A stretch of DNA of 64,000 nucleotides from Branchiostoma floridae (taxonomy: Eukaryota > Chordata > Leptocardii > Amphioxiformes > Branchiostomatidae): contig NC_049984.1 of NCBI RefSeq assembly GCF_000003815.2, forward strand, positions 1,857,186 through 1,921,185. The letters run 5' to 3'. A model generated the notes under the pieces. The model did no database searches, had not been told where the DNA came from, and worked only from the letters and a program-made list of their open reading frames with translations. The first letter of the stretch is position 1, and the number at the start of each line of letters is the position of its first letter. Shown piece after piece: positions 147-58,500 of this stretch. The translations under genes and the position numbers were made by a program.

Positions 147-1957
147 CCGTCCAGTCGCACAGGGGAGTAGGTGTCCTCGGTGACCTTGCAGTAGGCCTCC
201 TCCACCATGACGTTAAGGTCATGTCCAAGATGGCGCCACCTGTCTGCTCCAGGGGCGCGAAACTGCCACTGGTACGGCATGCGGCAATGCCACCTCTCAC
301 AGAGGGTCTTGTAGGAACACCTGTGAACAAACGCAAACAGTGTAGGAATAAGTTAACATTCTTTATGCGTTTCACATCGTGTACATCGCGGAACTGCCAC
401 TGGTACGGCATACGGCAGTGCCACCGCTCACACGGGGTCTTGTAGGAGCACCTGGGAACAAATAGACACAGTGTAGGAATAAGTAAACATTCTTTATGCC
501 TTACACATCGTTTACATCGCTGTACTGCCACTGGTGCGGCATGCGGCAGTGCCACCGCTCACACGGGGTCTTGTAGGAACACCTGTGGACAAACGCATAC
601 AGTTTAGGAATAAGGAAACATTTTTCATGCGCTTCACTTGTGTACATAGCACGTTGTGCAATGGCCCCATGTACATCGGTGTACCAGTATTTACTATATA
701 GATCTAGTATTTGTCAAATTTCGCCTCAAAATTACCATCCCACAATTTCCTTCATTCAGCTTCCATCAACTTTCGGCAAAGTTTGATTATTGACATGCAT
801 GATTGACTTGATACGAAACTTCATAAAAAGAGGATGTGTTATGTATGGAATGGCTCGCCCACGGGCCATCGAAAGTGAAAGTACACACGTCATTTCCGGT
901 GTCTACAAGGCGGGACGTTTCGCCAAGTGAGCGAAACTTCTTTCATTTTCTTCTAGCAGACAATTTGCGGCACCAAAGGGCTCTTTTCCAGGACGAAACG
1001 TTCAGTTATTTCTAGTAGTGAATAAAAATGATTTGGGCAATGTCTCTATGACTGATATATCTACACCATAGTTATTAGTACTACATTACAACTACAAAAC
1101 CCCATAGCACAAGCATCATATATACCGCGCCAAAGAAAATGAGAGTTGGCCCACCTTTGACGGATGTTGAAAATACAGATTTCGTCCAACTTCTCTGGGA
1201 CTTTGTCTCCTTGTTCTGCCTTCTTCTTCTTGACGAGATCCTTCTTAAAGATGTCGATGACGGCCTTCTCGGAGGTGCTGGGGATCCCGAACTTCTGCAG
1301 GATGCCCCTGTTTTGCGGGGTCATGACGTTGTGTGAAAAATCGCACTGGCCCTTGTCGAAGATACAGCCCCCGACGAGATAGCGGCTGCACACGTGGAGA
1401 TATGTGCAGGCGTCGCCCTTGGTGCAGCCCCGTTGGCGGTTATTGTACCAGGTACAGGCCTGGGGCAGTTTGGCGGGGACCGGGGCAGGGTTATCGTTCG
1501 CTCCGGACCTCTGGCGCGACCGTGGCCAAGGGCGGGCGCGTCCGCTGGCCGGTGGAACCTCGGGCGGTGTTTGCGGCATTTGTGCAGCTCCCATTTGCAC
1601 AGCCTGCATTAGCTGCATGACATCGCTCATAGAGAATTTAGCCTCGTTGCCGACCATCGGGCCGCTAGGAGGCTGAGGCACCTGTTGAATAAACCCTCCA
1701 CGGCCACGGCCTCGGTCCATCCCGCGACCCCCTCTAGGCCCTCCCCTTCCCCCGCGACCGTTGGGGTTCGGAGAGGGGCTAGGCCCGCTGTAGCCCCTCC
1801 CCCTCCCTCCACGGCCACGGAAACCTCCTCGACCCCGGGGGTTTGGACCGCCCCTAGTGCCGCTACTGTGGGGTGAATTGTCCCGGTCGTGCTTCACGGG
1901 CTCCATGTTTGATAGTGTGGGGACGTTTTTGTGCTGCTTCCCTTCGAATGATACCAC
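147..1957 (-). CDS. PARP12/ZAP-like CCCH-WWE protein, 3' part missing (gene A)
   Basis: Two exons are visible: 1957-1155 and 320-147; the gene continues past the left edge. Exon 1 codes for an RG/RGG-rich tail (about residues 35-90), a Met/Gln-rich linker, and two CCCH fingers (C168-C178-C184-H188 and C190-C198-C205-H209). A third finger is split by the intron (C261, then the Cys at the start of exon 2), and exon 2 adds the start of a WWE domain. Donor AAG|GTGGGC (phase 2) joins acceptor CACAG|GTG in frame. Exon 2 is 174 nt, the same length and phase as the matching exon of the complete paralog at 9.7-17.5 kb. Proteins of this family bind RNA with the fingers and ADP-ribose with WWE; a PARP domain is expected outside the window but not seen. 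The start could instead be the Met at 1906, since residues 1-17 have no family support. The acceptor of exon 2 is triplicated. Confidence 0.85.
259..650 (-). repeat. Tandem array repeating the exon 2 acceptor of gene A (131-bp unit)
   Basis: Three copies of an intron-plus-exon segment have exon starts at 320, 451 and 582, exactly 131 bp apart. Each carries a pyrimidine-rich tract, an AG, and about 61 nt coding for the third CCCH finger (CSYKT, then CERWHC). Only the copy at 320 continues into WWE sequence; the other two revert to intron after the finger. All three acceptors look usable and in frame, so the outer copies are best read as a minisatellite covering the splice boundary and not as extra fingers. 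Confidence 0.88.
871..882 (+). promoter_or_regulatory. ISRE-like motif in intron 1 of gene A
   Basis: GAAAGTGAAAGT fits the interferon-regulatory-factor consensus (GAAANNGAAA). It lies in the intron between the two visible exons, and a second GAAA-rich stretch follows near 940-955. Vertebrate ZC3HAV1 and PARP12 are interferon-induced; whether this motif acts here is inference. Confidence 0.4.
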
Positions 1958-3487
1958 GGCAGAAGGTAGGGACTCCTTACAGCGCTAGAAATCGCGTGGG
2001 CGTGTGCTAGGCTTCAGGTTGGTAAGAAAATTGACCCCATTTTTGTTGAAAACTTACTGGAAACTCGCTAGAAATGCGTAGAAAAATCCAGTCCTCAGAA
2101 CACAAAAGTAAGAAGTACATCATCATAAGAGAGCAGAGACAATCAAACAAACCCAATCTGACTGAAAACCCGTACAGAGCCTGACTTTGGAGGCTAAGGC
2201 CTGCCCCTGGTTTCGCTACGTCATCAAGCGCGTAACAGGTGGCGAGGCATCTGATTGGCTAAGAGGGTTTGAGCTAGGTCACGGAAGATTACGTGCCGTC
2301 TTTACGCAGTGACTAGCCTGGGTACCAGTCGATTACTACCGAGGCCTTCTTACACTCGCTGCCATGAAAACAAGAAAGACTTTTCTCAGTATAGCGAGTG
2401 TAAGGAGCGCCGGTAGTAATCGGATGGTAGGCATGGTAACTATGGAAAGCAAGTCTTTTCTGTGCAATATGGAGCAGACCTGATTGGAACGTATCGAAAA
2501 GATTGTTTTTCTGGATTAATTTTCCTTGACAAACTCAAATCGACGGGCAGTGTTTCCGTTCATGGGGGGTCTGCATGGAGGGGCCCCGGCAACGTTTTTA
2601 CTCTGAATTCAGGGAACCACCTACGTCTTACACTAAAACCAAGGAGGGCACTTGCACAAACTTTGGTCGCGTCGCTACAAATTACGTGTTTAAGATGGCC
2701 AGGTTTGTTCGCTGACGGCTTACCTTACGAATTACGGGAAATCCGCATGCAAGCCCTCAGTCCCCGTGCGCATCACATGACATTTTTGCAAGGCGCAATG
2801 TCCACAACATACTTTCGACGACAACCGGCATTTGAACACCGAAGGTGACGTGGGGAACTTGTTCCAAACTACTGACTGAGATCCAAACCGCCATTTAAAA
2901 AAGTTGGGTGAGTTCACTTGATTCATCATTTCCCACTGACTTAAAAACATTCACAAGTACTTGGCATATTTGATAACTTATGGTGATCGACTCTCTCTAA
3001 CAAGTTGCTGTATCGAACAACTTGTTGTTGCGCCATAATGAACGGATAAGTGCCAAAGTTCGGAACGCCCCCCCAGGTCCGCCATTGTTTCAAAAAATGT
3101 AATTGCGTATCTGTCATGAAGACCAACAAGAAAAGGACAAAATTATATCTTCATAACGGTAAGGTAATGTATATATGAAAAGTAATTGTTAAACTTATAT
3201 AAGGTTAATGACTATCTATTATTTCGAGTCGTCAAACTCAGCTGAAAAATTGTGCGCCTTTGCCTTTGGCGTCTTTCATTGCTTCTTAATATGTAATCAT
3301 GATTATTAAATGGTAGGAATGACTCTACTGTTTTATTTTTGTTTTGCCTACTATTTTAAAAGTCATTGGTACATTTATTTTATATGCGTTCTGGCTATTC
3401 CATTCTGTTGACTACAAAACCAAAAATTCAAGTAGGTATCCATCGTTAGTTCCGCTTTTTTAATCATGTACGCCGTTTTCTATGCAG
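1958..3487. other. Region between divergent gene A and NLR gene
   Basis: About 1.5 kb between the gene A start and the first coding exon of the NLR gene. It should hold the gene A promoter and, because the NLR exon begins with an acceptor at 3487/3488, at least one upstream untranslated NLR exon that I could not place. An inverted CCAAT motif (GATTGG) is near 2251 and a CRE-like TACGTCA near 2218. A hairpin MITE sits at 2314-2433. Confidence 0.5.
2314..2433. mobile_element. Short hairpin MITE, AGCCTGGGTACCA family
   Basis: The left arm begins TAGCCTGGGTACCAG and contains ATTACTACCG and CTTACACTCGC. The right arm has the complements GCGAGTGTAAG and CGGTAGTAAT. Related hairpins lie at 33832-33952, 44194-44330 and 55119-55482. 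It sits in the putative promoter region of gene A. Confidence 0.75.
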
Positions 3488-3547
3488 GTGACGCCCCACA
3501 AGACCGATCCCCGACGCATACCCCCTACACCCACCCCCACCCCCACC

Positions 3548-6500
3548 ATGACTGAACTCTCCCACCGCACCAGGCTCTACAAGAAGATCGAGGACAACCT
3601 CTCCGACGATGACGTCAGAAGCCTCAAAGCCATGCTAGTTGCCGACGAGCACCTTGGACAAGCAAGAGTAGAAAATGCGACGCCTCTAGAAATCATGAAC
3701 ATGTTAGAAGCGGACAATAAGGTCGGGAAGGGCAACCTAGCGCTGCTAGTGGACCTTTTGAAAGCCCTCGGTAAGACGAAGTTGGCAGAAGAAGCCGAGG
3801 ACGTCGCAAAATGGGAAGGAACTGGAGGTAGGTTAGCTGTTAATATTTTACAACGTTATCTGTAACGTAAACCACGGGACTGGTCTCGGCGTGGGTTAGC
3901 AATTAACAAATAAATGGGCGAGTAAAAACAGCTTTATTTACCTTCTAGCTTTGATAGACGGGTCAATATATTTGTCGATGGAATTGAAGTGGTGTTATTT
4001 TCAAAGGCAATGTAGAAATTGTATCATGGATAATCTACATTGAAATTCCAAACTGTAACATGCATATGGACGCTTTGTCCCAAACGCATTGATATGCATC
4101 TTTTTTCCTACTGAACGATTTAGGAACATTACATAGCACAATATGTGTTCAGTGTAAAATTATTAATTCACGGGTCTTGGTGGCAAGTGTGCAAATGTTG
4201 ACACACTGGGAGCACCGAATCCGCAGGTGTTTTTGGCACCTTTAGACAGAATAGCCGTGAGGCTCGGTGGGCATCACTCCACCGTCATGGGGGCAGGGAC
4301 ATGGCGAGTATCGAACTCAGGACCTACTGATTCTGATCCCAACGCTCTAGCCGTTGTGCCACACAGACACCCTCATTGTCAGTGTAAAAACAAACTGTAA
4401 TACACGTCTATTTCAGGACCGTCATGCACCATTGAGAATGTCATCAGCTGCCTGAAAGACCTGTATGCAAGAGAACACGCTCGTGTGCGGCCTCTTCCGT
4501 GGTGTGAAGACCTCAACCTGCCTTTGGGAGAAGTTTTCACCAATCTGCGACATCAGCGCAGGGGCGACAGGGGGCGCTTCCAGGACACAGACACTATCGT
4601 AAGCCTAGCAGATATTTTCAAGAAGACCGAAGCTAAAGATGTTAGAAGGATAAGGGTAGAGGGGGATCCCGGTATTGGGAAGTCGTGCTCTTGTCAGAAA
4701 CTGGCTCATGATTGGTCCTCTGGGAAACTGAATATTTTTAAGGCTGTTTTCTTTCTGGAAATTCGGCACATGTCTGGGAAAGTAAAAGATGCAATATTTG
4801 AGCAACTCCTACCAGAGGATACAAACATGACCCCGGACCATCTCTGGTCCTACATCCAAGAGAACCAGGATGATGTTCTCTTCATCCTGGACGGTCTAGA
4901 TGAGCTCAGTCAGACAGCTAGAGAAGTCACAGATGTGGTAGCCTTGATTCAGGGTAAAATCCTCAGGAACTGTCATGTCCTGGTGACCTCCAGGCCGTAC
5001 CACTGTGTCAAAGACTTGGAGAAATGTGATGAGTTTTACAAAATAATTGGTTACAGCAAAGATGATTGCGTCGAATTCATACAGAAATACTTCACTGAGA
5101 CTCCTGAATGTGCTGGAAAGCTAGTAGAAGAGGTTAATTGTAATCAGAATTTGTCGGAAATAGTTGTTAATCCCCTCAACAATGTGCTGATATGTATTGT
5201 ATGGGAAGACAATGAGGGAAAGTTGCCTTCCAGTCCAGATGAACTGTATCAAATGATTGTATATTCGATTAGCAAACGATATTGTACAAAGAATAGTATC
5301 CCATTAGAGGGTGGTGAAATTGCTCCAACCGTAGAAGGTGCATTGCGAGCCTTGGGGAAACTGTCCTGGGAGGGACTAGAGCAGGATCAGCTCCAGTTTA
5401 ACATAAATGATATCAAGGAGAAGTTTGGAAACAATGCAGATGACATGTTGGCTATCGGCTTACTGACAAGAGACAACTCTTTCTCCAGAATCAAACACAG
5501 TTGCTTCTGCGCTTTCTTACATAAAACATTTCAGGAATACATGGCTGCCTACTACATCAGTGACTTGGTCAAAAAGGGAAGTAAAGGGGAAAACGGCAAA
5601 GAATGCCTTCGTAGTTTGTTTGGAATGACAGTGGCTACAGCTAGTAATGTTGACATGGAACTGATGTCAGCAAACCGTGAGAGATATAGGGAGGTTCAGA
5701 ACATGCTGCTTTCGATCCTGGGTGACACTTCAGGCCCACTGTTTGAAATGTTTGCAGAGGAACTTAGAAAAGACGAGTGTAAGCGGGAGGACAGTGATCT
5801 TCTGTCCTTTTTCTGTATCATGTTTCTTGGTAGAAGTTGTAAAGCTGGCAGAACGTCGTGTAGACTGGCGGAGATTGTGGCACCTTGTCTGTCCCACATA
5901 ACTAACGACGTAAGCAAGCATGATGCTTCCAAGTCCTTCAAATATGATCAGGCTGAGTGGATTGACGGTTTGATACAGGTTGTCAGATGTCAAAGGACAT
6001 TTGCTGTGAACCCGGATTTAAGGTCGATACGACATCTCACTGTTAGCTGCGACGAGATGTGTGGTATGGTTTTGCAGCAAAGGCAACTTGATATTTTAGA
6101 AAATTCCCTATCAGATTGCGATGCAATAAGTTGTGTCACATTACTACAGTCCACACTCTATATTCCGATTGTTACATCAGAGGGACGTCAGGAAATTTCT
6201 CCATTTCGTACATTCATACCTCGGTGTGGGACAGACAGTTTGCACATAGATTTCGTATATACTTCCTGCACTTTTTCTCTGTCAATGGAAAACATGTTGA
6301 AAGAATTGTCAGAACTACAAAGTCTGCGACATGTCAACATCTGCGTAGGGTGTAACAGGCATACAGACTTCTCACATTATGACTCACTGTTGGCTGACAT
6401 GATTAGGAAGCAGAGTTGTCTCAGGTCCCTAAACTTGATGATCGCTGATTGGGATTACTTGGCATTTGAAGAAGAAGAAGGTGGATTTCACAATCTAACA

Positions 6501-7028
6501 TCAACCATACAAAGTATCTCTGAGCATGCAACAGTCGAGGTCGTGGAGCTAGAACATCCGGTGAAAGATACATATACATATGACGATCCATTATATGGAT
6601 GCGACTGGCTTGTGATAAGTGTTGATGCAATGGTACACAAGCTTACGGAATGTGTAACTAAAAACAAAGTCCTGAAAAGGCTACGGCTTAGTTGGAAACT
6701 AGGTTCTTATGACCATCCTTCCATTGATAAAATTTACGAGGGAACCTGTAGTAGTAAGTCTCTTTCCGACTTATGTTTGGCAATACAGGGGAACAGAACC
6801 TTGCAGACATTGACGATTGACGGGATGTTCTCTGAATCAGAGGGTCATCAGGACATAATCGACCAGCTAATGCATAATAAACCTGCAAACTTTGAGGAAC
6901 TCAGAATTACAATGTTTAAGTCTGAGGAGTACGCTCAATATGTCTCTACCGAAATCCCCAGTCACAGTAGTTGCAGTGACTTTAGAGGCAGTGGTGAGGA
7001 ACTCAGATTCATCGTGTCTGATTCTTAA
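3548..7028 (+). CDS. DED-NACHT NLR-type receptor (963 aa model)
   Basis: Two exons: 3548-3827 (donor GGAG|GTAGGT, phase 1) and 4417-7028 (acceptor TTTCAG|GACC). The acceptor at 3487/3488 and CCACCATGA context favour the ATG at 3548. Residues 1-85 resemble a death effector domain. The second exon is a NACHT NTPase: Walker A GDPGIGKS (176-183), Walker B VLFILDGLDEL (247-257), sensor VLVTSRP (281-287). A winged-helix/superhelical region follows (FQEYMAAYY motif). The C-terminal third has weak leucine-rich-like segments (LRSLNLMI, LQTLTIDG, FEELRIT) but no regular LRR array. Such proteins are cytosolic sensors that oligomerise and recruit partners through the death-fold domain; amphioxus is known for an expanded NLR repertoire. 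A SINE-like sequence lies in the intron, and a 102-bp tandem duplication spans the stop codon. Confidence 0.85.
4180..4372 (-). mobile_element. tRNA-derived SINE-like sequence in the NLR intron
   Basis: On the minus strand a box A-like TGGCACAACGGCTAGAGCG is followed by a box B-like GAGTTCGATACTC, spaced as in a tRNA gene, then non-tRNA sequence. No proper tRNA cloverleaf or discrete end is obvious. The 5' end is near 4372; the other end is approximate. Confidence 0.6.
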
Positions 7029-9514: not shown

Positions 9515-9743
9515 TTATTTCTTTTTCTTTCCTTTGAATTCGTTCTGTTTTTTCTTTATCTTTTTCCCTTTCCTTTTTGTTTTCGTCCTTTGTTTCTTTA
9601 TCTTCGTTTCTTTCTCTTTCTTTCTTTCTATCTATTTTCTTTTGAATTCTATCTTGTTTTCTTTCTCTATTTTCCTTTGCTTTGTCATTCTTTCTGTCTC
9701 TTTCTTCCTTTTTTCTTTCCTTCTCTTTCTTTCTTTCTCTTTC
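9515..9743 (-). repeat. Purine-rich (GAAA/GGAA) tract in the gene B 3' UTR
   Basis: The plus strand is almost entirely T and C (TTTC, CTTT repeats) for about 230 bp up to the stop codon. The transcript therefore has a long G/A-rich 3' UTR. The open frames rich in Phe and Leu here are low-complexity artefacts. Confidence 0.8.
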
Positions 9744-12700
9744 TCAGTACTCAATCAGATACTCGGGGTAACACTGCGCGCTGTCAAAGACGACAAAAAT
9801 CGTCGGATCGGTCCTGCTGTTCACACAGGAGTCAAAGGTCCTCCCTAGCGGCTCGCTCGGGTTGAGGGGAGGAGGGCGGCGGAGAGTCTTCTGCCCTGTG
9901 GTGTACGCACCCACCAGCACCTGAGCCACGAACATTGTCCTGCGTCTTCCAGACGTTTGCTGGGCGTAGCGGTTAGAGTATTCGGAGCTCGTGGAGAAGT
10001 AGCTTCCCTGCCCGTAGAGTGCCCCGGTGCTGGTTCCGCTGAGGCGCCAGTCGAAGTTTTGTAGACAGATGGCGTCCACTACCTCGGGTTTGGTGCCGTG
10101 GAACAGCTGGCGCTCCTCTGGGTCGGTCCCGCCGCTCTGCTTCTTCATCTGAGCTTTCTTCCTGTAAATTGAAAAAGAACTATAATCATTTTTAGAATAT
10201 GTTTAAGAAATTTAAACAAAATTTGAAGATGGGTGATCTGCACATGTCTTTCCCTCTGTCCTGCTTCTTCATCTAAGCATTCGTCCTGTAACATTTAAAA
10301 AATAAGATGAAATGTAAAGATTTTTGGAATCTTTTTATAATAAAAAATAGAAGGTAAAAGATAGATGCTCTGCTTATGTCTCTTGTCCAATTATTTACTT
10401 TTGATATCCTATTGTGCTTTTTCAGTAGTTTACTTTTCATAACTTATTACATCGATGTTGAAAATCGCGAACCATTCACCCCATCAGATAAAAGCCAGCG
10501 CTGCTAGAAGTCTGCAGTCATGTGTATGGGTGATTTTCTCTTTACCTGACGTAGGCGCTCCACAGGTAAGGGTTCGGCACCCGTTTGATTTGGGGATTTT
10601 GGCTAGGAGAGAAAGTTCTACAGCCGCCATACATCATTAGATGATGACTGCTGGTGATTGATCGATTGATTGACTGAACATGTAGATGCGTATTAGTGGC
10701 TTCCCTTTACCTGACGTAGGCGCTCCACAGGTAAGGGTTCTGCACCCGTTTGATGTTAATGACAGGTGTCCCCGCCATCCCCTGCCCCTCAAACAGCGCC
10801 CTGACCCGCTGGTACTCTCCTGCCGTGGTCCCGCTTGGGGAGAGCGGCACCTCGTCGTAGTCGTCCCCGTCCTCGGCCATCGCGCGCCAGTGGGCGGGCA
10901 GGGAGTCGTCTGCTCCCGAGGAACCTGAGGTCAGCCTGCGGCGGGCGGTGGGCTTGTTCCTGGGCAGACATGTCACGTATGCATTATAGAAGTGTAACTG
11001 TAAATATTATAAATTTTAAACGTTTCGTTCAGATTTGCGTTTGCGACTAATTTTAAACAGTTACAGCGTTCATGAACAACGTGAAAGAAAGAAGCTGAAA
11101 GTTACCTAATTTTATGTTAGTTATCCTACCGAACATTTACCAGCTCATATTTAACGACACAACGCAGTTGCATATACGCTGTGAACATCTTTTTGCAGTG
11201 TAATAAGGCAGGTTCAACTAGAAATGAATCAAAACAATGACTTTTCCTATAATGTTTTGATCGGTCATATTCTACAATCAGGTATAGAACTAGTCTATAG
11301 TCGACTTCTAAAAAAAGACGGAAAATGACTTTTACCTTCTCGGATTAGTGACGTCATCCTCGGAGACGAAGCAGGGCCGCCGTCTGACGTCACGCCTGGT
11401 CTGGTAGCTGACGTTCTCCTGCTGCATGTCGCGCAGGCGCAGGACGTACTGATGGTGCTGCGTGTTGAACGTCAGTTCGGCGTCAGGCTGGTCCTGGAAC
11501 CGCTCCTCGATATCCTGGCTGGTCAGGCTGCTCTGGCCTTTAGCGCCCGAGTTGTTCTGTAGACAAAAAATTGTGACTCTTATTAGTGGCAAATGTTGGC
11601 ATATACAAGTGGCCATTGGCACACCAAATCTGTGTTTGTTTTTGGCACACTTTTGACAGATCTTTGACAGCCAATCTTTATTACTCAATTCTGAGTACTG
11701 AATGTCAGGTCGGCATCAGGTTGGTCTGGCCTCTGTCGGCTCCAGAGTGGTTCTGAGGACAGGAATGGGGTTAAAGAGGTTAAGGAGGAGGCTATTTATG
11801 GCCGGGTGATTTTAACTGCGAGTCAAAAATCTCCAGGGGCCCGGCCGAGCCCCACAATAGCCCGTAAGGTTGGTCCTGGAACCTCTCCTCGATTACCTGA
11901 TACCTTTGGACCCTGTCGGCGCCTATAGCTAAGTGGTTCTGTGTTAGGAGCACATTTGGATGTTGCAAAACGTTTCAGCTGATACTACGAGAAGACCACT
12001 GGCACTGTCCATAGGTGGTCCTATAAGAGACCAACCAACAAACCAACAAACAAACGTGTCTGTCGTGTCTCACCGTCTGCCCTTACTCCACCCAAGTCCC
12101 ATGACCAAACAGACAGACAGACAGAACAACACAATCGAAAACCACAATAACTCAGTAAGAAATGTCCTACCGTCTGCCCGTACTCCACCCAAGTTCTACT
12201 GTCGTCCCGCCAGTACTACCGCCACTCCGTCACGAACAGGGGGAGACTTCACAGGGGAACCAAACAACCAGACAAACAAACAAAAGCAAAGACAGTCAAG
12301 CACAAGCGACAACATATAGCTCCTTCCGAAACTCTCACCGTCTGCCCGTACTCCACCCAGGTCCCGCCGTCGTCCCGCCAGTACCAGCGCCACTCCGTCA
12401 CGAACGGGTACCCGGCAGGCTTGACCCCCCACGACGGCGTGGACAGCCTCCGGACCACGTAGACCTTGTCCTTGACCGTGGGGGCGAGACCAAGGCGCTG
12501 GAGCAGGGATGAGGCGTCTTGCGGAGGCCGAGACTTCATGTCCTTGAAGTTGACCACGCTGAATGGTTTGCTGAAATTTACATGATTACAGCGTTAATTT
12601 AAATGTCTTATATATGCTAGGGTCATATTTCCAGGCAGTTTGCTGGAAAAGAAGTTATAATAAAAACCACACATAACTTAGAATATGAGTCTGAACATAA

Positions 12701-15700
12701 GTCGTGTATATTTCTTAATCTACACATTTCTCTTTCGTTCCCACAAGCTGCCCGGCCTGGTCCGGGTTTGAAAATATGGCCCGAGCACGTACGTGACTGA
12801 GTTACGTATGTTTTGTTTAATTTTTATTTTATTTAATGCTTACATACGTTTACAGACGCTTATTTTTGTCAGTGTTTATGCATCATTATCATATAGCCAG
12901 GCCCCGCGGACCAATCAGAAGTCCCCGTTCCACGTTGGTTATGACGCCGTAACACAAAGATTCAGGCCAGGCAGGTGTGTATCGCTCCTCTGATTGGTCA
13001 GAATGAATCGACACCGGCACCAGTGTCGATGCAAATCGACACCGGTGCCGGTGTCGATTCATTTTGACCAATCAAAAGTAGCCTTACACACAAGAAATTA
13101 AGGTATATGCAGGCATTGACCAATAAAAAGGAGCAAAACATATGCCAGAGCAGAGGGAACTAGAGTTCCACGAACACATACCTTTGCCAAATAAACCAGG
13201 TTTGTTATGTAGAATGATGTCTGTAGACAAATGCATTACTCATTTCATTTTCTTTATAATTGTATGCTTGGAGTTGGTTTATAAAATTGCGGCATTGATT
13301 ATGCAAATTAGATCCCAAGTTACAATTTACGATATCTATCAGCATACCAAAAATCATGATGATCCTTTGATCCATTCTTGACTTATTCTCTTTCAAAGTC
13401 TTTAAATACACCTCTTTTTCTCTTCCCTTTTTCTCAGTTACATTCTCTCAGTTGGATTTATGAACTTTTCCTCATTAATTATGCAAATTAGCTGTTAATT
13501 TGCATAATAAGTTTCACATTATGTAAGTCTTCACTTAGGCTATCTACATGCCAAAAATCATGACGATCCTTCAACACGTTCATATTTTCTCATTAATTAT
13601 GCAAATGAGATCATCATTTGCATGATAAACATTTATTGACATTTCTCTCTTTCTCAGCTACATATGTGACAAGTTTTAAAGTCCTATTGTGGAATGTAGT
13701 TTGAATTTATAAGATACCCTCATTAATTATGCAAATTAGCTGTTGATTTGCATAATTGGTATCTCATTATGTAGGTCTTCATTTACGCTGCCTACATACC
13801 AAAAGACATGATGATCTGTCAACATGTTCATATTTTCTCATTAATTATGCAAATGAGGCCATCATTTGCATAATTGATATCCATCGACTTTTCTCTCCTT
13901 CCCAGCTACATATGTAACAAGTTTGAAAGTCCTATCATGGAATGCAGTGGATTTATAAATTTTCCTCATTAATTATGCAAATCAGCTGTTGATTTGCATA
14001 ATTAGTATATCATTATGTAAGTCATCACTCATTCAACCAAAAATCATGACGATCCGTCAACACGTTGTAGAGTTATTCTCGTCCAAAGTTTGAAAGGAAA
14101 CCGGCGCCTGCAGTTCCAAACAAGCCGCTAGGGGGTCCAAACTCACAGCACTTACTCTCTGCCCCAAGGGCTATCTACCAGTCAAAAATCATGACCACAG
14201 CATGTCCAGAACACGAGATATAAAAAATTGAGGTTCTGCTGCAGTACCTTAGCAAGCCGCTAGGGGGCCCATTATCGAACTTGACCTTCGTTTTCCCAAC
14301 CTCTACCCACCTAACAAATATCATTGGGATCCATCAAAGGCTTCTCGAGTTATGCTGTTAACACACACACAGACACACAGACTCACAAGCCTAAAACATA
14401 ACCTTTAGCCATTCTGGCAAAGGTAATAAGTACAGACTGCAAGGGGGAATGGCTCCTTCTAACATTGATAATGAGTTTTGTTGTTCTAAAAAGCCTGCAA
14501 TGTTTCGAATATTTTCTGTGAAAATTTTTGGTTTCAAAAATTTGACAAAGGAATTCACACGTATAGAGTCAATTCCAAGTCACCGAGATGGTTTTGAAAT
14601 AATATTTGTAATAAGTTTGAACTATTTTGAGTAAAAGAAAATTTCAGTCACTAAAGTTCGAAATCGTTCAAACATTTCAAAATGAAAGTTTAAACATGTT
14701 TGAACCTTTTTATATTTGTTGGAACATTTGGGAAAGTAATGATATAATTATATCTTTATTTAGAACAATTTTCAAACATCTATGTGTTTTTGTTATTGTT
14801 CCAACATGTTCCAACATTTTGTGTCATTTGTTCCCTCCATAAAAACTTTTATTGACCCCATAAACAAAGCTGCTAAGCTTGGTCCTTTGTTTGGCTCTTG
14901 TATTTTTAGATTTTCTTTAGTATACAATGGTGAGTCTTTTGTGAGAAGGTGGCAGACAGACATAATTTCCTGCACTTGGCAGGGATGTGTGAATTGCCCT
15001 CTTCCCAGCCCACTGACCCAGTTTCATCATATTGTTTCCATGTTCGAACATGTGATCACAAATGATGCATCTATGTTGGAACAGTTTAGAAACTAACAGA
15101 AATAATGTATTTGATGTTAGAAATGTTTCTAACATGTTTCAATACTATAGAAATATTTAGAACGTCACATAGATGTTATAAATATTTCTAAACAGTTACT
15201 TATCACAGTTAGATTGTTACAAAGACTTCCAAAATGTTAGAACAAAAGGTAAGAAACACCCTCTCGGTAATATGGAATCGACTCTAGTGCCAAGAGATCT
15301 ATGCGTCATAAAGGAGTTTGCAAGTTTGGGTAGGCTATATGATAATAACGTTAATGACCCGCCTGTTCCTCGGTGTACATGGTGTCATAACGCCTGGTCC
15401 TTTGCTCCAACTACTCACTTTGCTCACATCGGTGGTTTTATTCGGTGGTTATAGCAAAGGACCAGGCGTTATGACACCATATACACCTCGGGGCGGGTCA
15501 TTTATCCTTAATTAAATGTTATGGCGGCCAGGCTAAGTAACACACAGGCCGTCCCTGTAGCTTCACACATACATTACGTACATTAAACATGCATGTATAT
15601 CAAGACTACATAGTATGTGCTTATTTGCATTGCGTCATGGTGCACCAGGTTACTTTGTTTGGTTTTCTTTTGTTAACCACTTCAATGTCACACGACCGAA

Positions 15701-16678
15701 ACCAACCTCTGTTACGAAAGGTGAGTAGCAATGAATGCACCTTATATGTCACACTATATTGACTTGATGCCACACGATCGTGCGAAGCACACGTTTAGCC
15801 CCTGATAAAAACGGCAAACATGCAAACACCACTACCAATTTATTCCTCCATCTGAAGTGTTTATTGTCAACAACAAAAATGGTTTCTAAAATCGTTAGCC
15901 TTCTCTTCAGGTCAACTTCAGTGATATGACATCAGTGCCGTAATTTTAACCGCCACCGGTGGTACCTTGCCTGACCGGCTTTTCACACTGTGCTACATAT
16001 ATGCCACTGGTAATTCTGCTTGGAGATATACGCAATGCCTGACTTAATACTACATATAGTATGGTAGAGCCCTTACTTTGTTGATCCCAGCAAACAGACG
16101 TCTCCGTTGGTGACGTCACAGAACTGCTTCTCTATTACGATGTTAGAGTCGGAGTTGTAGTCCTGCCAGGTCTCGTCCCCAGCTACCCGGCACTGCCACT
16201 GGTAGGGCAGGGCGCAATGCCAGTTGTGACAGGTGTCGCCGAAGGAGCACCTTGTCGGAAAAATGGAAACGACTTACATTGCTATATAATACATATACGC
16301 AATACGCAACAGGGGTCATTCATAAAATATTAACATTCATCGCAGTAGGTGTCGTGGCATGGCCTTGCACGAATAATATCACATACAATGGACATGATAC
16401 ATTCATACGACTTCAAGGGTGACACTAGAAGTACGCAATTTCAAGTTTCCCATTTCCGGGTGTATTAAACATTACATATGAAATACAACTGTTACAGCAA
16501 CGCATTCATTATTTTGGCATGTATGTGTGATTACGTATGCGTGTGCCTGTGTTTGTTTGTATGTTTGTTTGAGTATGTGTGTGTTTGTGTGTGTCTGTGT
16601 TTGAGTGTGTGTGTATCTGTGTGTCTGTGTGTGTCTGTGTGTATCTGTGTGTCTGTGTGTGTCTCTGTGTGTGTATGC

Positions 16679-16715
<37 letters not shown>

Positions 16716-17527
16716 TCTGTGTGCGTATGTGTGCATGTTATCAACTGATAGGCGCTAATTAAAGGATATCATTCTTGGAGACATATGTTGTCACCTGTTC
16801 CTCAGGTTGAACGTGCAGATCTCTGTCCCCTTCCCGGCATCGTCTCCCCCGCCCTGGCGCGAGGGCCCGCCGCCCCCGCTCGGTGTCCGCCGCCTTGCTC
16901 CCGCCGCACCGCTAAGCTGCGCGCTCCTGGGTGGGGTTACCCCCGGTGGTGACGACAACATCTCCAGCAGAAAGCTCTCAGGTTTAGAACCGTCGATCCC
17001 AAACTCGCTCAGCACCGCCATGGGCTGCGGATCGTGCAGGTTGTGAGAGAAATCACATCGCTGCGCGCCGAACCTACAGCCGCCTTGCAGGTAGAACTGA
17101 CAGACGTGAAGGAATGTACAGGTGTGCCCTTTACTGCAGCCCCTGTCTCGGTTGTTGTACCAGGTACAGGCCTTCGGGAACCTACTGGTACAGACAGAGC
17201 GAAAGACCACACTTCAGGCATTCGAAAATACCCTGAACAACATGAAAATTACAACCAGTCAACCTGAGTTATTGGTACTCACCGCCACCCACCTGCAGGG
17301 TGCCCCTGCCTAGGATCCCTCTCTCTCCCTCCCTCTCTACACAAACATTAATGAACCCAAATACCCTTGACCCAAACCCGTGTCAGAGGTTTCAGTTAAA
17401 TGAAGTTGACACGTATGTAGAAATTTAATAATATTAAGAACCTTGGGGAAGCTGCCATGGGTGTGGGACGTCCGCGTCCTCGTCCTGCGCCGCCGCTAGG
17501 AGCCCGACGACGTTGTCTCTCCGCCAT
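9744..17527 (-). CDS. PARP12-like CCCH-WWE mono-ADP-ribosyltransferase (gene B, 589 aa)
   Basis: Seven exons join in frame: 17527-17442, 17184-16795, 16250-16077, 12570-12339, 11556-11336, 10959-10711, 10161-9744. Order of parts: a short Arg/Gly-rich N-terminus; CCCH fingers C35-C45-C51-H55 and C57-C65-C72-H76; a Gly/Pro/Ser linker; a third finger C152-C160-C166-H170 split by intron 2; two WWE domains (about 172-240 and 276-355); and a C-terminal ART/PARP domain. Catalytic positions read H472 (FHGT), Y505 (GQGSYFS) and I587 (PEYLIEY), the H-Y-I pattern of mono-ADP-ribosylating PARPs. Known relatives (PARP12, ZC3HAV1) bind RNA and take part in antiviral responses. There are three fingers, not the five of vertebrate PARP12. 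Four of six introns carry tandem copies of the adjoining exon end. It is paralogous to gene A. Confidence 0.93.
10130..10292 (-). repeat. Duplicated exon 7 acceptor of gene B
   Basis: The real exon starts at 10161 (TTACAG|GAAGAAAGCTCAG). A second copy of the exon start with its acceptor is at 10285 (TTACAG|GACGAATGCTTAG), 124 bp upstream in the gene. The copy has an in-frame stop (TAG) in the exon part, so it is not usable coding sequence. Confidence 0.8.
10530..10760 (-). repeat. Duplicated exon 6 donor of gene B
   Basis: The last about 45 nt of exon 6 (NPYLWSAYVR) plus donor CAG|GTAAAG (exon end 10711) recurs 165 bp downstream in the gene, with exon end at 10546 and donor CAG|GTAAAG intact. 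The two are nearly identical over the shared part. Confidence 0.88.
11463..11945 (-). repeat. Triplicated exon 5 acceptor of gene B
   Basis: The real acceptor is at 11556 (CTACAG|AACAACTC). Degenerate copies of the first part of exon 5 with acceptors lie at 11752 (CCTCAG|AACCACTC) and 11938 (ACACAG|AACCACTT), 196 and 186 bp apart. The outer copies have internal deletions relative to the exon. Confidence 0.82.
12062..12400 (-). repeat. Triplicated exon 4 donor of gene B
   Basis: The end of exon 4 (EYGQT) with donor CAGACG|GTGAGA at 12339 is repeated downstream in the gene, with exon ends at 12171 (CAGACG|GTAGGA) and 12074 (CAGACG|GTGAGA). Spacings are 168 and 97 bp. The middle copy extends about 75 nt into the exon; the distal one is shorter. 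Confidence 0.85.
12974..13092. mobile_element. Perfect-stem hairpin element in gene B intron 3
   Basis: TGATTGGTCAGAATGAATCG and ACACCGGCACC on the left are mirrored by GGTGCCGGTGT, CGATTCATTTTGACCAATCA on the right, around a loop of about 4 nt (GCAA). It could form a strong stem in RNA or DNA. No clear target duplication was identified. Confidence 0.7.
13290..14060. repeat. 247-bp tandem repeat rich in ATGCAAAT octamers
   Basis: ATTAATTATGCAAAT recurs at about 13475, 13593, 13723, 13841 and 13970. Two half-unit types alternate, giving a period near 247 bp. Each half also carries an inverted ATTTGCAT, so about eleven POU-octamer-like sites lie in 0.75 kb. It is in gene B intron 3. Confidence 0.8.
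14060..14432 (+). repeat. Dispersed repeat ending in GGCAAAGGTAATAAG
   Basis: It contains AGCCGCTAGGGGG, AAAAATCATGACCA, GTCCAGAACA and TTATGCTGTTAACACACAC before the end. Relatives end with nearly the same words at 43655-43975 and 51225-51475. It may be the 3' end of a retroelement; family unknown. Confidence 0.65.
14640..15250. other. Intron stretch with recurring GTT(N)AACATG-type palindromes
   Basis: Many short words such as AAACATGTTT, TTCCAACATGTTCCAACA, GTTCGAACATG and TTCTAACATGTTTC recur at irregular spacing. No coding or element structure was recognised. Confidence 0.4.
15357..15501. mobile_element. Hairpin MITE with about 50-bp arms, gene B intron 3
   Basis: The left arm starts GACCCGCC and contains GTGTCATAACGCCTGGTCC. 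The right arm carries GGACCAGGCGTTATGACAC and ends GGCGGGTC, with a loop of about 40 bp. The arms are almost perfect complements, suggesting recent spread. Confidence 0.8.
16540..16735. repeat. (GT)n-type microsatellite
   Basis: Long imperfect TGTG/TCTG run in gene B intron 2. The His/Thr- and Cys/Val-rich open frames across it are artefacts. Confidence 0.95.
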
Positions 17528-35644: not shown

Positions 35645-37357
35645 AGTTATTATAGTAGTAGTAATGGTTTATTGAACAAGAACATATCGCATACATTCGC
35701 AGCCTAACGGCTGAATTGCAGTTGCAATAGCACAATAAAACAAACGCATTCGGTCAATGCCCAACAAGGCAAATCATTAAAATAGAAGTACTTGTAAAAT
35801 CAGTTAGGTACGAATATAAATATTTACATGATATCGACCAGCGAATATCATAAACGAAAATTAGCGGCGTACAATACTGGCAGGATTAAGGCATGGGGGC
35901 ATTGCAGTTGAGTAGACGGACCATGTACGGAATGGCACTAGACCTATAGCGTTCAGTTCTGCACTTGGGAATGTCCAGTTTGTTGGCAGAGCGGGTTTGT
36001 CGACAACTGACGCTCTTTCTTGTGGGTGGTAGGAAGTGGCGGAATTGATCGGAGACTAAGAGAGATTGTGCAAACCGAAGAGTCAGATTCGAACGCCTGG
36101 AGTGGAGTGATGGAAGGCCAAGCTGTGTACATGCATCTCGGTAGCTGGTGTAGTCGCGTCCCATGATGATACGTACCGCTCTGCGCTGGATACGTTCGAT
36201 CTTGTTACTCTGCTGTGTGGTTAACCCTGGGTGCCAAACAGGGGCTGAGTACTCAGTAACTGGGCGAATGTAGGAAGTGTACACAGCAACAAGGTCTTCT
36301 TTCGAAATGTGGAAATGTTTCAGTCTGCGCAGTAAGAACAGGCGTTGACTTGCCTTACTGTATGTGTGGTCGACGTGCGCGTTCCATCTGAGGTCAGACT
36401 GTAGGTAGAGACCGAGTATTCTCATGACTCTTACTTCCACTAGAGAAATTTCGTTGATCTTGAGCGGGGGAGGAGGGCGTGGAGTCATGCTGAATTGGAC
36501 ATGGAGAACCTTACATTTACCCGGATGGAGCACCATCTGGCTTTCCTGGGACCATGTGGTCAGGTCAGTTAAGTCCTGTTGGATACTCGGAGGTTGTGAT
36601 GACGAGTTTCTAATTTCCAGCAAGTTCAAGTCATCCACAAACTTCCATCTCTTGGACAGGGCTTGTCGTGCTGCACTGTTTATATAAACAATGAATATGA
36701 TGGGGCCAAGAATTGTTCCTTGCGGCAGACCACAGGTTACAGAAACAGATTCAGAAAGGGCACCGTGGTAACGGACCACCTGTTGCCTGTTCGTGAGGAA
36801 ATCTGAAATCCATTTGACGAGAGATGGCCGTAATCCCAACTCAGTCAGTCGGCGAATAGCTAAGGTGTGACTCACACGGTCGAAGGCTTTACTGTAATCC
36901 GTGGACACCAGGGAGCTCAGGGTACCAGGTCTGTCAGAGGCCTTGAACAAGTCGTTCGTAAGGTCTAACAGACAATGGGTGGTGGATCGACCCTTCAGGC
37001 AGCCGAATTGCTGGGGGTCGATTTCAGATTTAATGTCCGACAATACCCATTGACTGATGAAGCTTTCGGCAACTTTGCCTAACAAAGACGTCAGAGAAAT
37101 AGGTCGCAGTTCTTTGACCGAGGGAGGTTTCGTCTTAGGCACCGGGACCACAACGGCGCGTTTCCACTCTTCAGGTACGGTACCCTGATGGAGGGAGGCG
37201 TTCAGGATATCTGCCAGAGGCGCGCTCAGTTCACATGCAAATTCTTTGATAAGTTTCCCTGGGATCCCATCAGGCCCTGCGGCCTTTCTCGTCTTCACTT
37301 TCAAAAGTCTGTCGTAAACCTCCCATGGTTCAACCGATGGTGCTGGGAGTGACGGTA
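35645..37357 (-). mobile_element. 5'-truncated non-LTR retrotransposon with reverse transcriptase
   Basis: An open frame from about 37355 to 35886 codes for the fingers-palm part of a LINE reverse transcriptase: KAAGPDGIPGKLIKEF, LRPISLTSLLGKVAE, TDYSKAFDRVSH, GLPQGTILGP and the catalytic FVDD box, followed by a typical C-terminal RIQRRAVRIIMG segment. The block order fits CR1/Jockey-type elements. No endonuclease domain is present and a stop lies just upstream of the first block, so this is a truncated copy. The 3' UTR runs to about 35645 and ends with AATAAACC and TAGTAG repeats. The frame is intact over 470 codons, so the insertion may be fairly recent. Confidence 0.9.
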
Positions 37358-38634
37358 GTCAAGTTACTCTATGGGAAGGCTATGGGAAGGCTTTGCAGAC
37401 CTGAACTCATGTACACAATATTAAAAGTTCTCCTTCTGTGCACTATCCTTCGTAGAATCCTTTCCGAAAAGCAATGCTACCTTGTTGTAACATATGTGAC
37501 ATTCCAGGTCAATTGTGTATACCTGGCTAAATAAATAAAATGAAAATGAATGAAATGAAATGTTAAGAAATAATACCAGGGTTCTCATAGCTGCCTGACA
37601 AAGTTGCTCTCTTGAAATTCTTAAAAGCAATGCTAACTTGTGGTACACATGTAGCATAGGTGACATTCCAAGTCATAATATGACCTGGCCTCCCCTACCT
37701 GCCTAGCTAGCAGAGACGCACTGTCAAAATTACTCAAGATCCTTCAAAGCTTCATAGAATACTTTCTAAAAAGCTTGGTATCTTGTTCTAGCATAGGTGA
37801 CATTCCGTACTAAACCTTACGAGGTCATGACATTCTTGCACTGAAAGGAATCTGAAGGCCAAAACCTCCAGGAAAGCATTATTGAGTTAGTGTCATCACG
37901 GTCGACTTGCCACCGCGTACTGAGCTATGCGCCGCCACAAAGTTGCTAAGTCTGGACCTTGGCAAGAAGAATGCGAGGATTTGGCGGCATGGCATTTCGT
38001 CACCAGAAAAACGCTTCCCGTCCATTGTAACTGACGGCTGAGAAGTTTCCACCCCATGAGTCGCATTGACAGACACAGATTTAAGGTTAGCCATGCTTTT
38101 CTGCAATGTGCAAACGAAAGACTCTTTAGGACTTGAATGGAGGTAATATAATGGTCCTTCTCTTTCTTTTGTTGTACGTTTTCACTTTTCGTGCTGCCTT
38201 CCCTCTTTGTAATGGTTTGTCGCTATCGTTTCAAGTTGCAATTATTAGAAAGATTCTCTCTCAAATAATTACCATTTCTATAGGATAACATACAAGCATA
38301 CAAGTACATGTGTACTACATCGCAGCTAGGACACCTTTATTGTTATATATCATTAATAGCTATATATTTGCACTTGCAGAGTGTAAGTGCAATCAATATT
38401 TAAGTTGCCAAATCAACTTATTAAAGTCTGTTTTTTTTTTAGCCAGGCTCCTGTTGTGTCATTAAGGTTTCAATCATGCACCTCTTAGGATGGTCTACTG
38501 ACAAAGCGTAGGTAAGTAAACAAATGCACAGGTGCATAATACATAATTCATTAGCTACTTACAGTACATTGCATTAGTCTATTTTCAGAGGGGAGACTGA
38601 CAAATATAATCAATTATAACTATTTAAAAAATGG

Positions 38635-39200
38635 TGAAACAAGTTGCTAGGGGGCCCAAAATCTAATTATTTTGAGGTCCGATCAGGACCTACCCACATA
38701 CCAAACATCAAGACAACCCATCCAGGCCTTCTCAAGCTAACAGAGGGAAGAACACGACACGGACACTAAAAACATTTTTACGGAAGTAGCAATAGACGAA
38801 ACAACATTTTCTGAAAGAACCAAACAGAAAGCAAAAACATATAAAGAGATTGATACCTGTGGAGGTGCAATGGACCAATTAGGCTTAGATCACATTTCCA
38901 AACTGGGGCCCGGCCGGGCAGCTTTCGGGAGCAATAAGAATGATACAAAAGACATCAAAAACACAAAATGTCAAAATAAGATTCATGGACATAATATGTG
39001 CATATTTCTAGGTATATATTTTGATTTTTCTTTTCTTAACATCCCGTCCGGGCCCCGGTTTGGAAATGTGACCTAAGCCTTAACAAGGAAGACATGAGAG
39101 CAAATTACGAGAATGTCCTCCAAAGTTTCCCACCACCAATTACCAACCAATCACCTGCCCAGGACAGGACAGTCCCTGGTGTTATCTCGTGTTACGCCGA
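38635..39200. repeat. Large tandem duplication, copy 1 (contains a MITE)
   Basis: Shares ordered words with 39245-39965: TTTTGAGGTCC, ACCCACA, AGGTGCAATGGACCAAT, GAATGTCCTCCAAAGTTTCC, AGGACAGGACAGTCCCTGG. The element at 38882-39079 interrupts this copy only. Confidence 0.85.
38882..39079. mobile_element. MITE inserted at TTA (AGGCTTAG ends)
   Basis: AGGCTTAGATCACATTTCC and CCCGGCCGGG on the left are mirrored by GGAAATGTGACCTAAGCCT on the right, flanked by TTA. The paralogous site in copy 2 reads CCAATCAACAAG, consistent with a 3-bp target. The pattern fits PIF/Harbinger or a related group. Confidence 0.82.
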
Positions 39201-39244: not shown

Positions 39245-39965
39245 CTTGATGAAAAAAATGATAAAACAAGCTGCTATGGGGGAACAAAATCGAATCATTT
39301 TGAGGTCCTATCAAGACCCACCCACAAACAAAACATCAGACAATCCACCTTACTTTTGGCCTTCTAGAGTCAGAAGGACAGTGACACACATGAACACTAA
39401 AACATTTTTCTCAGAGGTTACCGTAGCAATAGCATAAATAACATTTTATGTAAGAACAAAACAGAAAGCAAAAGCATATTGATGTCTTTGAAGGTGCAAT
39501 GGACCAATCAACAAGGGAGACATGTGAGCAAATTAAGGCCCAATCTACATACACACAGTTTTTACCGATATCTGTGGAGATGTCGGGAGGGATCTAGAAC
39601 GTAGGGGGCTGGACACCCATGGCGCTTGCAGTCATAAACATATAGCGCGATTTTCCAAATGGCGTTATATGCTAATGAGCCTTCCCGAAGTCGGGAAGCA
39701 TTTACACGCGCGCGAAGCTGTCGGGGACCCCTGCTAAGCTATCGGTAAGGTATCGTACGAATGGTCCAGACCTTTCGGGAGAAATTTTCCAGATATCGTA
39801 ATGGCGATATAGTAGTTCTATCTAGACGATGAAAAAAAGCTCTCGCCGATATCGGGAAAAACTGTGTGTAGATTGTGCCTTAGAGAATGTCCTCCAAAGT
39901 TTCCCACCACCAATTACCGTCCAATCACCTGCCCAGGACAGGACAGTCCCTGGTGTTATCTCGTA
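39245..39965. repeat. Large tandem duplication, copy 2 (contains a different MITE)
   Basis: Partner of 38635-39200. The interrupting element is at 39536-39880, a different site and family from the one in copy 1. Confidence 0.85.
39536..39880. mobile_element. MITE inserted at TTA (AGGCCCAATCTAC ends)
   Basis: AGGCCCAATCTACATACACA and ACCGATATC are mirrored by GATATCGGGAAAAACTGTGT and GTAGATTGTGCCT. Copy 1 of the duplication reads AGCAAATTACGAGAATG here, showing the empty site. Confidence 0.82.
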
Positions 39966-55569: not shown

Positions 55570-58500
55570 TCACTGTTTACAACAGCTCTTCTTCCCAGAG
55601 GCAGACGCTGACACTCTTTTCTGCAGCTGTATCGACCCTGAATCAGTAAGGCCCTGCGGTAGGAGGGATTCTGACGGCAGTCTCTGAGCTGGAAAAAAAA
55701 GAAAAAATCCTAACATTTAAAAAGCCACGGGTGTTTTTATACAGCACCAAAGAGGGACATAGTAGACAAAAAAGTGAACATACTCACAGTGGTTTTATGC
55801 TCAAAAAGTTGAAAAAAACACCACAAACATTTCCCTCTTTGAAGTAAAAGCCTGCATGGCAGTCTCAACTGCAAACTTAATTAAAACCAATGCCATGGCT
55901 CCATTTTCTCCCTATTGCAAAGTTAAATCACTGCCCAAAATTCTACATTTATCTGGAATGTTGGGCTATTGAATCTCAAGTTGGCTGCATAAATGAATGA
56001 GTCGGTCACTTGAAGGGAGAGGGACCATTCATTAGCTACTTACCAGCACCACCTATCAAAAGCTGAATAAACTGCAGCCTATCAGTATCATTTTATGCAA
56101 TACAAACATCACAGTGTACTAAAGTTTCAAACTACTCAGTAATCAAGGTGATGAGACACATTATGTGCTGTCTTGCTGCTGGTCTATAAGAAGATGGCGT
56201 TGTTTTCCTCAGCGCCACCTATCATAAGGGACCGTACGATATTTATCGGGGGGGAGGGCTGGTGCATTGGAAGTCGGATCAAAAAATTTTTTGATGGCCC
56301 TCCCCCCCATCTCAAAAAAATTTAACGTGACCCTCCCCCTCCACCTAAAAAAAATCAACATGACCCTCCCCCCGACAGGCATCATAAAACAGGTAGAAAA
56401 ACAACCGATAAAATAATCTTAATACAACATGTATAGACGTCAGGGCACAAGGGCGCCGGCCAGTGTTCTCGCCAGGATTTTTTCACAGCGTCGGGGCAGG
56501 GGTCTGGGGGCATGTTCCCCAGGGAAAATTTGGATTTTCAAACCCTCTAAAACAGAATTTCCTGCAACTTGAGAGGAAAATTATGCCCTTGAGATTGGAT
56601 GCCGGTTGCCTTTTTTACTCCCGTTTTTCAGTAATCGACGTCCGCCCTCTCCCCAAAAATACGTTATAACTATAAGCTCGGGGAATCAGCAGTCCGTGAT
56701 CTGGCCGCGGGTATTATTTGTCCAGTCATGTCTATATGAAAATTTTGGGGTTTTGATGCTTCCAAACAGGGCTCTAGCCAGTGAGTTCGTCAGCCCATGG
56801 AAAAATCCTGCCAATTTTTTTCCGGCGTTGAATATGAAAAGAATGCCTACCTCGTGCGATCGATGTTGCGCCCTCCCGCATCAAATGCTAGTAGTTTTTC
56901 CAGAGGATAGAATAAACGGCGCCATCACACCTTGTGTTTTTTTTTTCTATTTTGCCCGATGATTTTACTCAAATTTATCGAATCGGTCGGGTTTTACAAG
57001 GCCGCGACGTCATTTTCCACGAGCGTGCGTTTGTTTCGTGCGACCTCAGGTAACCCCGTTTTCGGCGTGAAATCTTTGGCTCACCGCTGGATTTCTTTTT
57101 ACATAGAGTAGAGTAGACCAAGAACGTTATACATTATACGAAGGAAGGCGATCTGCTGCATCTTTGGCAGTGATCAGTGCCATTGTAGTCTTGAAGGAGT
57201 AGCCAGAAAAGACGTGCTGGCGCTGTGATCGACAGTCCGTCTGGGGAGGGGGGCGTGCCGCGGCATGTGCTACGGACGCCAATGCCAGTGCACAGCCGAC
57301 TCGATCGACACTTGACAACAATATTGCGGCCCCTTTTTCTGCCGCAAATTTTGTCTTTTTGAAACAAAAGAAATGTTTTAAATAAAAAATAAAGTGTATA
57401 GTTTTGGATTCTTCACGTATTTACCGTGCACCGCTTTTGTAACTTAAATATTTTGGGAACCTCAGCCGAGCCGATTGCGTCTTTCCAGAAAAAAATAAGT
57501 CTGTAGACGGAATGACGTATGCCTGGCGGGAACACTGGTCCATGGCAGCGCCACTTTGGGGGGCCTAGGGGGGCAAAGCCCCCCGGAAGCTCTTGCATTT
57601 TAGGCTATTCAGAAGGCTTATTTTATCAGTTTTAGGGCCATGTCAAGATATCAAAACAAAAAGAGTATGAACAATTCTTTCAAAAAAATTAACATGGCCC
57701 TCCCCCCTATCTAAAAAAAATTAACATGGCCCTCCCCCCACCTCAAAAAAAATTAACATGGCCCTCCCCCCCTAACGCACCAGCCCTCCCCCCCTGATAA
57801 ATATCGTACAGTCCCTAAGTTGAATGAACTACAGCCCATCAGTGGCATTTTCAACTACTGTAAATGCATCTAAGTTCGCGGGGATTTAATTTTCGCGTTA
57901 GCGGGAAAGTGGAGTGTTCGCAGTGGTTCTAAGGTCGCGGTAGCACCATACACTGAAGTCACATACAGTAATGAAAAATGTCTGCGGTGGTTTTTAGTTC
58001 GCGGTAAGACTGCCTCGCAAAAACCGCGAACATAAAACTACCGCAAATATTTCTGCATTTACACTACTGCACATCAATCTACTCACTGATTAAGGTGAAC
58101 ATCTGAGCCACGTTATGTGCAGTCTTGGCGCTGGTCTCCAAGAAGATGGCGTTGTTTTCTTCCGCGTAATCCGACGCCATTCTCGTGGACACTTCTCGCA
58201 GGTCTTCCATGTCACACTTGTTTCCCGCGATGGCCAGAACGATGTTGTCCGCACCATACTGTTTCAGTTCGCGGATCCAGTCTTTTAGTGTCTGGAAACT
58301 TCCCTTGGTGGAAATGAAGAGATACAAATTTAAAATTAGTCCTGTTTTGTAATTAATTTGATATTACAAACTTTGAAATTCCATGATGCTCACGGATCCA
58401 GTCTTTTTAGTGTCTGGAAACTTCCCTTGGTGGAAATAAAGAAAAAGAAAAACTCAAAATGAATTAGCTACTTATTGTAAACAGTGCAATTTTTATAGTA

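Follow-up and report, generated by a model that had tools for sequence, protein, structure and literature searches.

Copies of exon-intron boundaries within the introns of a PARP12-like gene of amphioxus, Branchiostoma floridae

The introns of a PARP12-like gene of Branchiostoma floridae, called gene B here, hold duplicates of exon-edge stretches from the adjoining exons, and these duplicates leave decoy splice sites inside the introns. The gene lies in a 64,000-nucleotide stretch of contig NC_049984.1 (the window; all positions below count from its first letter). Its duplicated boundaries number four, namely both ends of introns 4 and 6, so that a preliminary description of this DNA, which spoke of four of the gene's six introns, was wrong on this point. 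Gene B looks like a new and unusually rich case of the repeats known in amphioxus as mirages, with more boundaries affected per gene, and the copies are very probably repeats of that type, the product of several local duplications, spaced at 97-196 bp, which by chance spanned an exon edge.

Gene B and its copied boundaries

Gene B occupies roughly 17.2-9.7 kb on the minus strand and, by Pfam and PDB matches, combines CCCH fingers, a WWE domain and a PARP domain; its model is based on reading frames, splice signals and homology. Exons 4 to 7 (12570-12339, 11556-11336, 10959-10711 and 10161-9744) give an in-frame 372-residue product, whose best PDB match is 2pqf, human PARP12 (E 1.5e-44), and which contains Pfam domains PF02825 (5.3e-14) and PF00644 (1.2e-24), PF25261 being found in an upstream frame. 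Exon 4, placed by its splice signal, reading frame and Pfam match, encodes the first half of the WWE domain and has its real donor after 12339; exon 5 (reading frame, Pfam) encodes the second half, the first exon base after its real acceptor being 11556. The real donor of exon 6 (splice signal, reading frame) follows 10711, and exon 7, the last, whose first base after the real acceptor is 10161, carries the C-terminal part of the PARP catalytic domain and ends with YPEYLIEY and a stop (reading frame, Pfam PARP, PDB 2pqf). Further upstream lie an exon with the first WWE part (16077..16250, minus strand), recognised by Pfam, homology and the boundary test, and a CCCH zinc-finger exon with PARP12-type fingers (16795..17213, minus strand; Pfam, homology), whose donor follows 16795 and whose 5' end is undefined; the CCCH exon is linked to the remainder by frame and by homology with gene A, a paralogue in the same window. 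Since the exon that ends at 16077 joins exon 4 in frame and without a stop, a separate exon 3 is unneeded, and five introns can be placed rather than the six described earlier; an additional, unseen 5' exon is possible. As predicted from these matches, gene B is a PARP12/ZC3HAV1-type protein gene with CCCH fingers, WWE and a C-terminal PARP catalytic domain in one gene. By the same model, a single gene B intron contains a near-perfect 40-nt inverted repeat (12991-13074; 95% complementary, 4-nt loop, CACCGG-rich) and an AT-rich array of 248 bp repeats with TTAATTATGCAAAT and TTTGCATAAT motifs (13269-14089).

The copies, all read on the minus strand, are arranged as follows. The exon-4 donor boundary recurs twice in intron 4: the first copy (12165..12260) has 62/70 exon bases the same, a weakly alignable intron part (about 80%), an in-frame TAG and a decoy GT after 12171, and the second (12066..12100) has 22/24 exon bases, an in-frame TAA and a decoy GT after 12074. 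At the other end of this intron the exon-5 acceptor boundary is also copied twice, in a near copy (11690..11758) that is gapped, matches at 32/39 over its best stretch and has a decoy AG with first base 11752, and in a far copy (11863..11944) that matches at 32/37 over its best stretch and has a decoy AG with first base 11938. In intron 6 the donor of exon 6, along with the adjoining 3' exon end, is copied once (10536..10589; 96% over 54 nt, decoy 10546, flanking intron unalignable), as is the exon-7 acceptor boundary (10246..10337), whose copy comprises about 25-40 exon nt and about 50-70 intron nt, with an in-frame TAG and a decoy AG with first base 10285. The nine bases at decoy donors 12074 and 10546 are the same as those at their respective real donors. 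All six copies lie at the coordinates that the preliminary description had given, and its spacings (168 and 97 bp for exon 4, 165 bp for exon 6, 196 and 186 bp for exon 5, 124 bp for exon 7) are exact when taken from the extra lengths that go with decoy use. It had reported that most copied sites keep GT or AG; in fact all six do.

We scored these copies against 200 dinucleotide shuffles. The exon-4 copy scores 98 against a null maximum of 32 and the exon-6 copy 87 against 24, and the exon-7 copy scores 61 against 28 when joined with its intron part and 35 against 27 for the exon alone. Exon 5 scores 49 against its intron and 38 against the near copy, with a null maximum of 29 in both comparisons. 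The copies are better than chance in self-alignment, with the exon-5 acceptor the weaker case: in a uniform test applied to 18 boundaries it scores 32, which equals the null maximum and is matched by 1 of 300 shuffles (p 0.003), and so falls below the strict cut-off.

One event or several

The copies of gene B represent more than one duplication, and a single large duplication is not favoured. We weighed in particular whether each intron might have been copied together with both of its exon ends in one event, through a nested insertion or stitched haplotypes, so that donor and acceptor copies are paired. Such pairing would agree with the counts, since donor copies are as many as acceptor copies both in intron 4 (two of either kind) and in intron 6 (one of either kind); were 4 of 10 boundaries hit at random, both ends of two introns would be duplicated in 4.8% of cases. 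Over the safest exon stretches the members of each supposed pair are also similarly diverged: 1/44 differences in the exon-6 copy vs 3/25 in the exon-7 copy (p 0.13), 8/70 in the first exon-4 copy vs 7/39 in the near exon-5 copy (p 0.39), and 2/24 in the second exon-4 copy vs 5/37 in the far exon-5 copy (p 0.69). Longer stretches, however, do differ (1/44 vs 11/42, p 0.0014; 8/70 vs 16/64, p 0.046), the first of these values being obtained only with the exon-7 copy taken over 42 nt, and all other pairwise tests give p of at least 0.13. The claim that the duplications at the four boundaries were independent holds in so far as there was more than one event, while the divergence differences between copies are mostly non-significant.

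The accompanying introns provide the stronger argument. In intron 4, the sequence beside the exon-4 donor copy aligns modestly (p 0.04), and the outer against the innermost piece does so at less than 1 in 500, in TTTG-rich sequence; the pieces beside the exon-5 acceptor copies do not align above shuffles (p 0.34 to 0.96). In intron 6 it is the 3' side that aligns weakly: the intron beside the exon-7 acceptor copy gives p 0.07 alone, with about 77% identity over 71 columns (its joined score is given above), and the outer 5' piece, beside the exon-6 donor copy, does not align above shuffles (p 0.72), its score against the inner intron being 15 with a null mean of 15.9. Because the introns next to the exon-4 and exon-7 copies align and those next to the exon-6 and exon-5 copies do not, a single event that copied both ends of an intron is disfavoured, and we regard such paired copying as very improbable. 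One large duplication, which had been named as the finding that would undo the earlier reading, is likewise disfavoured by unlike spacings, divergences and intron similarity. Stitching of haplotypes in the assembly would be expected to yield full-length matches, and the matches here are short.

The exon-6 copy deserves separate comment. It is 43/44 identical to its exon, yet the 113 intron bases expected to accompany it score at shuffle level. When we simulated the drift of a whole tandem unit, the 0.33 percentile of the score was at least 17 in all four settings, including the upper 95% limit of divergence; the observed score is below this percentile in all four, so that the copy looks unlike a plain tandem unit. 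Either the exon end and donor alone were copied, or the intron part was later replaced, or conversion has kept the exon part alike. For the second exon-4 copy the same model gives a borderline result and is not rejected (the observed score of 31 compares with 24-31 for the 0.33 percentile simulated at the point estimate), and the exon-5 copies, which lack alignable introns, fit their divergence in some simulated settings only. The null models for tandem drift and for copy visibility use assumed indel settings. Overall, tandem units with a repeated intron part are clear in gene A and partial for the exon-4 donor, the exon-7 acceptor and the Rab-like gene described below, and alignment against shuffles finds none for the exon-6 donor or exon-5 acceptor copies.

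Transposable elements were considered as a source of the repeated intron sequence. Beyond the local copies, positions 9700-12600 have no matches elsewhere in the window on either strand (low-complexity filter on), which leaves elements that occur only elsewhere in the genome, and a search of Rfam gave 0 matches at gathering score.

Boundary copies and the local background

Gene B is not the only gene of the window with such copies. In gene A, the PARP12-like paralogue (CCCH frame from 1984, donor after 1155, WWE exon from 320), an array of three 131 bp units crosses the acceptor of the WWE exon (256..648, minus strand; real first base 320, decoys 451 and 582). Its units are 88-92% identical in their exon parts and 81-86% in their intron parts, and the two intron copies agree with each other at 60/65 positions and with the real exon at 58/65 and 57/65. 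No copy accompanies the homologous gene B acceptor at 16250 (score 16, p 0.60), and the gene A array is therefore probably younger than the split of the two genes. Between these two genes, on the opposite strand (3464-7025, +), a death-effector-domain frame is followed by a NACHT frame in an NLR-like order. A Rab-like gene, marked by WDTAG at 60288 and GNKCD at 58225 and unrelated to the PARP family, has one copy of an acceptor boundary (58269..58450, minus strand): the first base of the real exon is 58303, and the copy lies 122 bp upstream, at 58425, with 35/40 exon bases the same and one inserted base. The window also contains a reverse transcriptase frame (35889-37358, minus strand; Pfam RVT_1), perhaps, at a guess, of a non-LTR-type element. 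Copies that score far above shuffles are found at three boundaries of gene B, one of gene A and one of the Rab-like gene, with the exon-5 acceptor weaker.

Local duplications are common in this window. We tested 40.4 kb of non-coding sequence at 40-base steps, coding regions having been excluded by eye from the reading frames. Of 2022 tests, 131 (6.5%) reached the strict score, 35, and these formed 12 clusters; a random sample gave 37 positives in 600 tests, and shuffled sequence 0 in 400. An 82-nt repeat at 39109-39190 and 39883-39964, with 98% identity over a distance of 774 bp, exceeds most local repeats of the window in identity. In a hand-made list of 22 loci, which omits short satellites and near-repeats, the median spacing of local duplications is 169 bp, and 16 of the 21 loci within 45-400 bp fall at 100-200 bp; spacings of this size are found also at loci without a known exon edge.

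Against this background we compared the 18 boundaries that can be placed in genes A, B and Rab, a set that omits the donor of the gene A WWE exon, a RING/TRAF-type gene at 34.6-35.3 kb and the DED-NACHT gene, and in which one Rab donor, dA, sits one base off. Copies occur at 5 of the 18 under the strict cut-off (6 with the exon-5 acceptor), where 1.17 are expected, giving P 0.0037 in a cluster-preserving test that keeps each gene's layout. Three further boundaries were not counted and have low scores (Rab aA 25, Rab dA 23 and gene B d5 21; p 0.007-0.027). The excess over background is suggestive. It bears on the idea that local duplications arise preferentially at exon-intron boundaries as true mutational hotspots, with transcription-linked breakage or the phasing of nucleosomes along exon edges as possible mechanisms. 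In its favour are the contrast between 5/18 boundaries and 6.5% of non-coding tests, the two introns hit at both ends (0.048), and the predominance of 100-200 bp spacings. The exon template is conserved, however, so a boundary copy stays visible longer; in simulation an exon-anchored copy is recognisable about 1.7 times longer, and with this correction the excess of 5/18 has a binomial p of 0.043. Outside gene B the count is 2/8 boundaries, with p 0.088 in the cluster test and 0.22 after correction, and the spacings of 100-200 bp are not confined to known exon edges. Genes A and Rab, like gene B, were moreover examined after their copies had shown, so the 18 boundaries are not a blind sample and a hotspot is not established; we think one unlikely. 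A broader proposal, that exon edges are preferred targets of local copying with a nucleosome-like step of 100-200 bp, at times of the exon end and splice site only, and so provide a standing supply of splice signals for new exons or introns, appears somewhat less probable still. Of the two options in the preliminary description, hotspots or tolerated sites, tolerance suffices, given the frequency of local duplication and the 1.7-fold visibility. The boundary copies are most likely ordinary local duplications tolerated by introns, although slower decay accounts for the excess of 5/18 over 6.5% only in part.

Splicing and probable kinship with amphioxus mirages

When each gene B decoy is used singly, with all other sites real, a stop is met in 6/6 cases, and 4/6 copies have a stop in the exon's own frame. 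Useful new isoforms would thus be unlikely, and nonsense-mediated decay would be the expected fate of such transcripts. These properties are also what one might expect if the copies were functional, retained because, as alternative splice sites or poison sites, they adjust how much PARP12-like protein is made: splicing at any one of the gene B decoys leads to a stop, the 9-mer at two decoy donors is that of the real sites, preservation of the exon-6 copy exceeds that of its flanks, and despite the divergence of the copies the splice dinucleotide survives in 9/9 decoys (gene B contributing six, gene A two and Rab one). Stops, however, are expected whenever 124-382 nt of intron are retained. The retention of GT or AG has a chance of about 0.054 from divergence (0.11 for the six of gene B), which is non-significant, and the presence of the dinucleotide was itself partly why the sites were chosen; with 0 of 9 decoys having lost GT or AG there is no sign of purging, and retention is likewise unproven. 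We also considered whether the exon-6 copy might form a coding cassette exon, 57 nt long, in frame and stop-free, before 10546, but its possible acceptor is ordinary: on one strand, 33.4 kb of sequence contains 305 AG sites that score as well or better (splice-site scores here use a position table that gives only a rough scale). Published mirages are reported not to disturb splicing (PMC3087553, PMC3902484). A retained function for the copies seems to us most improbable.

Under the reading that we prefer, a local duplication that straddles an exon edge would deposit in the intron an inert duplicate of the exon end, splice site included, this duplicate presumably arising by slippage, unequal exchange or templated repair. 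The spliceosome would continue to use the exon-side site, since that site bounds a short exon and preserves the frame; exon definition may underlie the choice of the right site, and for donors the real site would in addition be transcribed first. Transcripts that did use a decoy would run into a stop and presumably be removed by decay of mis-spliced transcripts.

The kinship with mirages that had been suggested for gene B is supported by the anatomy, which in the features compared is that published for amphioxus mirages, described in globins, Adh3, PGBD5 and TnC. As PMC3087553 describes them, mirages of the globin genes BflGb6 and BflGb9 repeat an exon-intron boundary in tandem, whether at a 5' or a 3' end, in units of about 150-160 bp; many copies keep AG/GT, splicing is apparently undisturbed by RT-PCR, the BflGb6 copies are 81-100% identical, and their number varies between haplotypes. 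The same paper cites mirages at Adh3 and further loci, and for Adh3 of B. floridae and B. lanceolatum (Canestro et al. 2002, as cited there) gives units of 10-72 bp and somatic length instability. For lancelet PGBD5, PMC3902484 describes imperfect repeats of 60 bp and 108 bp at two places in the gene, with a copy number that differs between assemblies, and names TnC. The gene B copies resemble the globin mirages in straddling boundaries at donor or acceptor ends with AG/GT kept, and the PGBD5 repeats, as far as these are described there, in being imperfect and in covering splice sites at two or more boundaries within a single gene. Unlike BflGb6 and BflGb9, each with one boundary in the descriptions cited, gene B has four, at both ends of two introns, and its copies are few, diverged and partly exon-only; PGBD5, with two places as described, likewise has fewer, and the units given for Adh3 are shorter than the gene B spacings of 97-196 bp. 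In the literature that we searched, of which coverage was partial, we found no mirages in PARP12. A further parallel is with the Rogers model of intron gain by tandem duplication, discussed with a potato RdRp case in PMC4974935, in that local duplications copy splice signals; unlike that model as presented there, no new intron is evident in gene B, the copies lying inside existing introns and 4/6 being interrupted by a stop when read in frame with the exon.

Mirage sites may mislead gene prediction and short-read assembly in such genomes. Mirages may be common, given that within a single 64 kb window three genes carry copies at 6 of 18 boundaries (5 strict), the genes not having been chosen blind. 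They can be counted genome-wide, which would bear on whether exon edges are hit above chance and on how the spliceosome ignores decoys that are locally equal to the real site.
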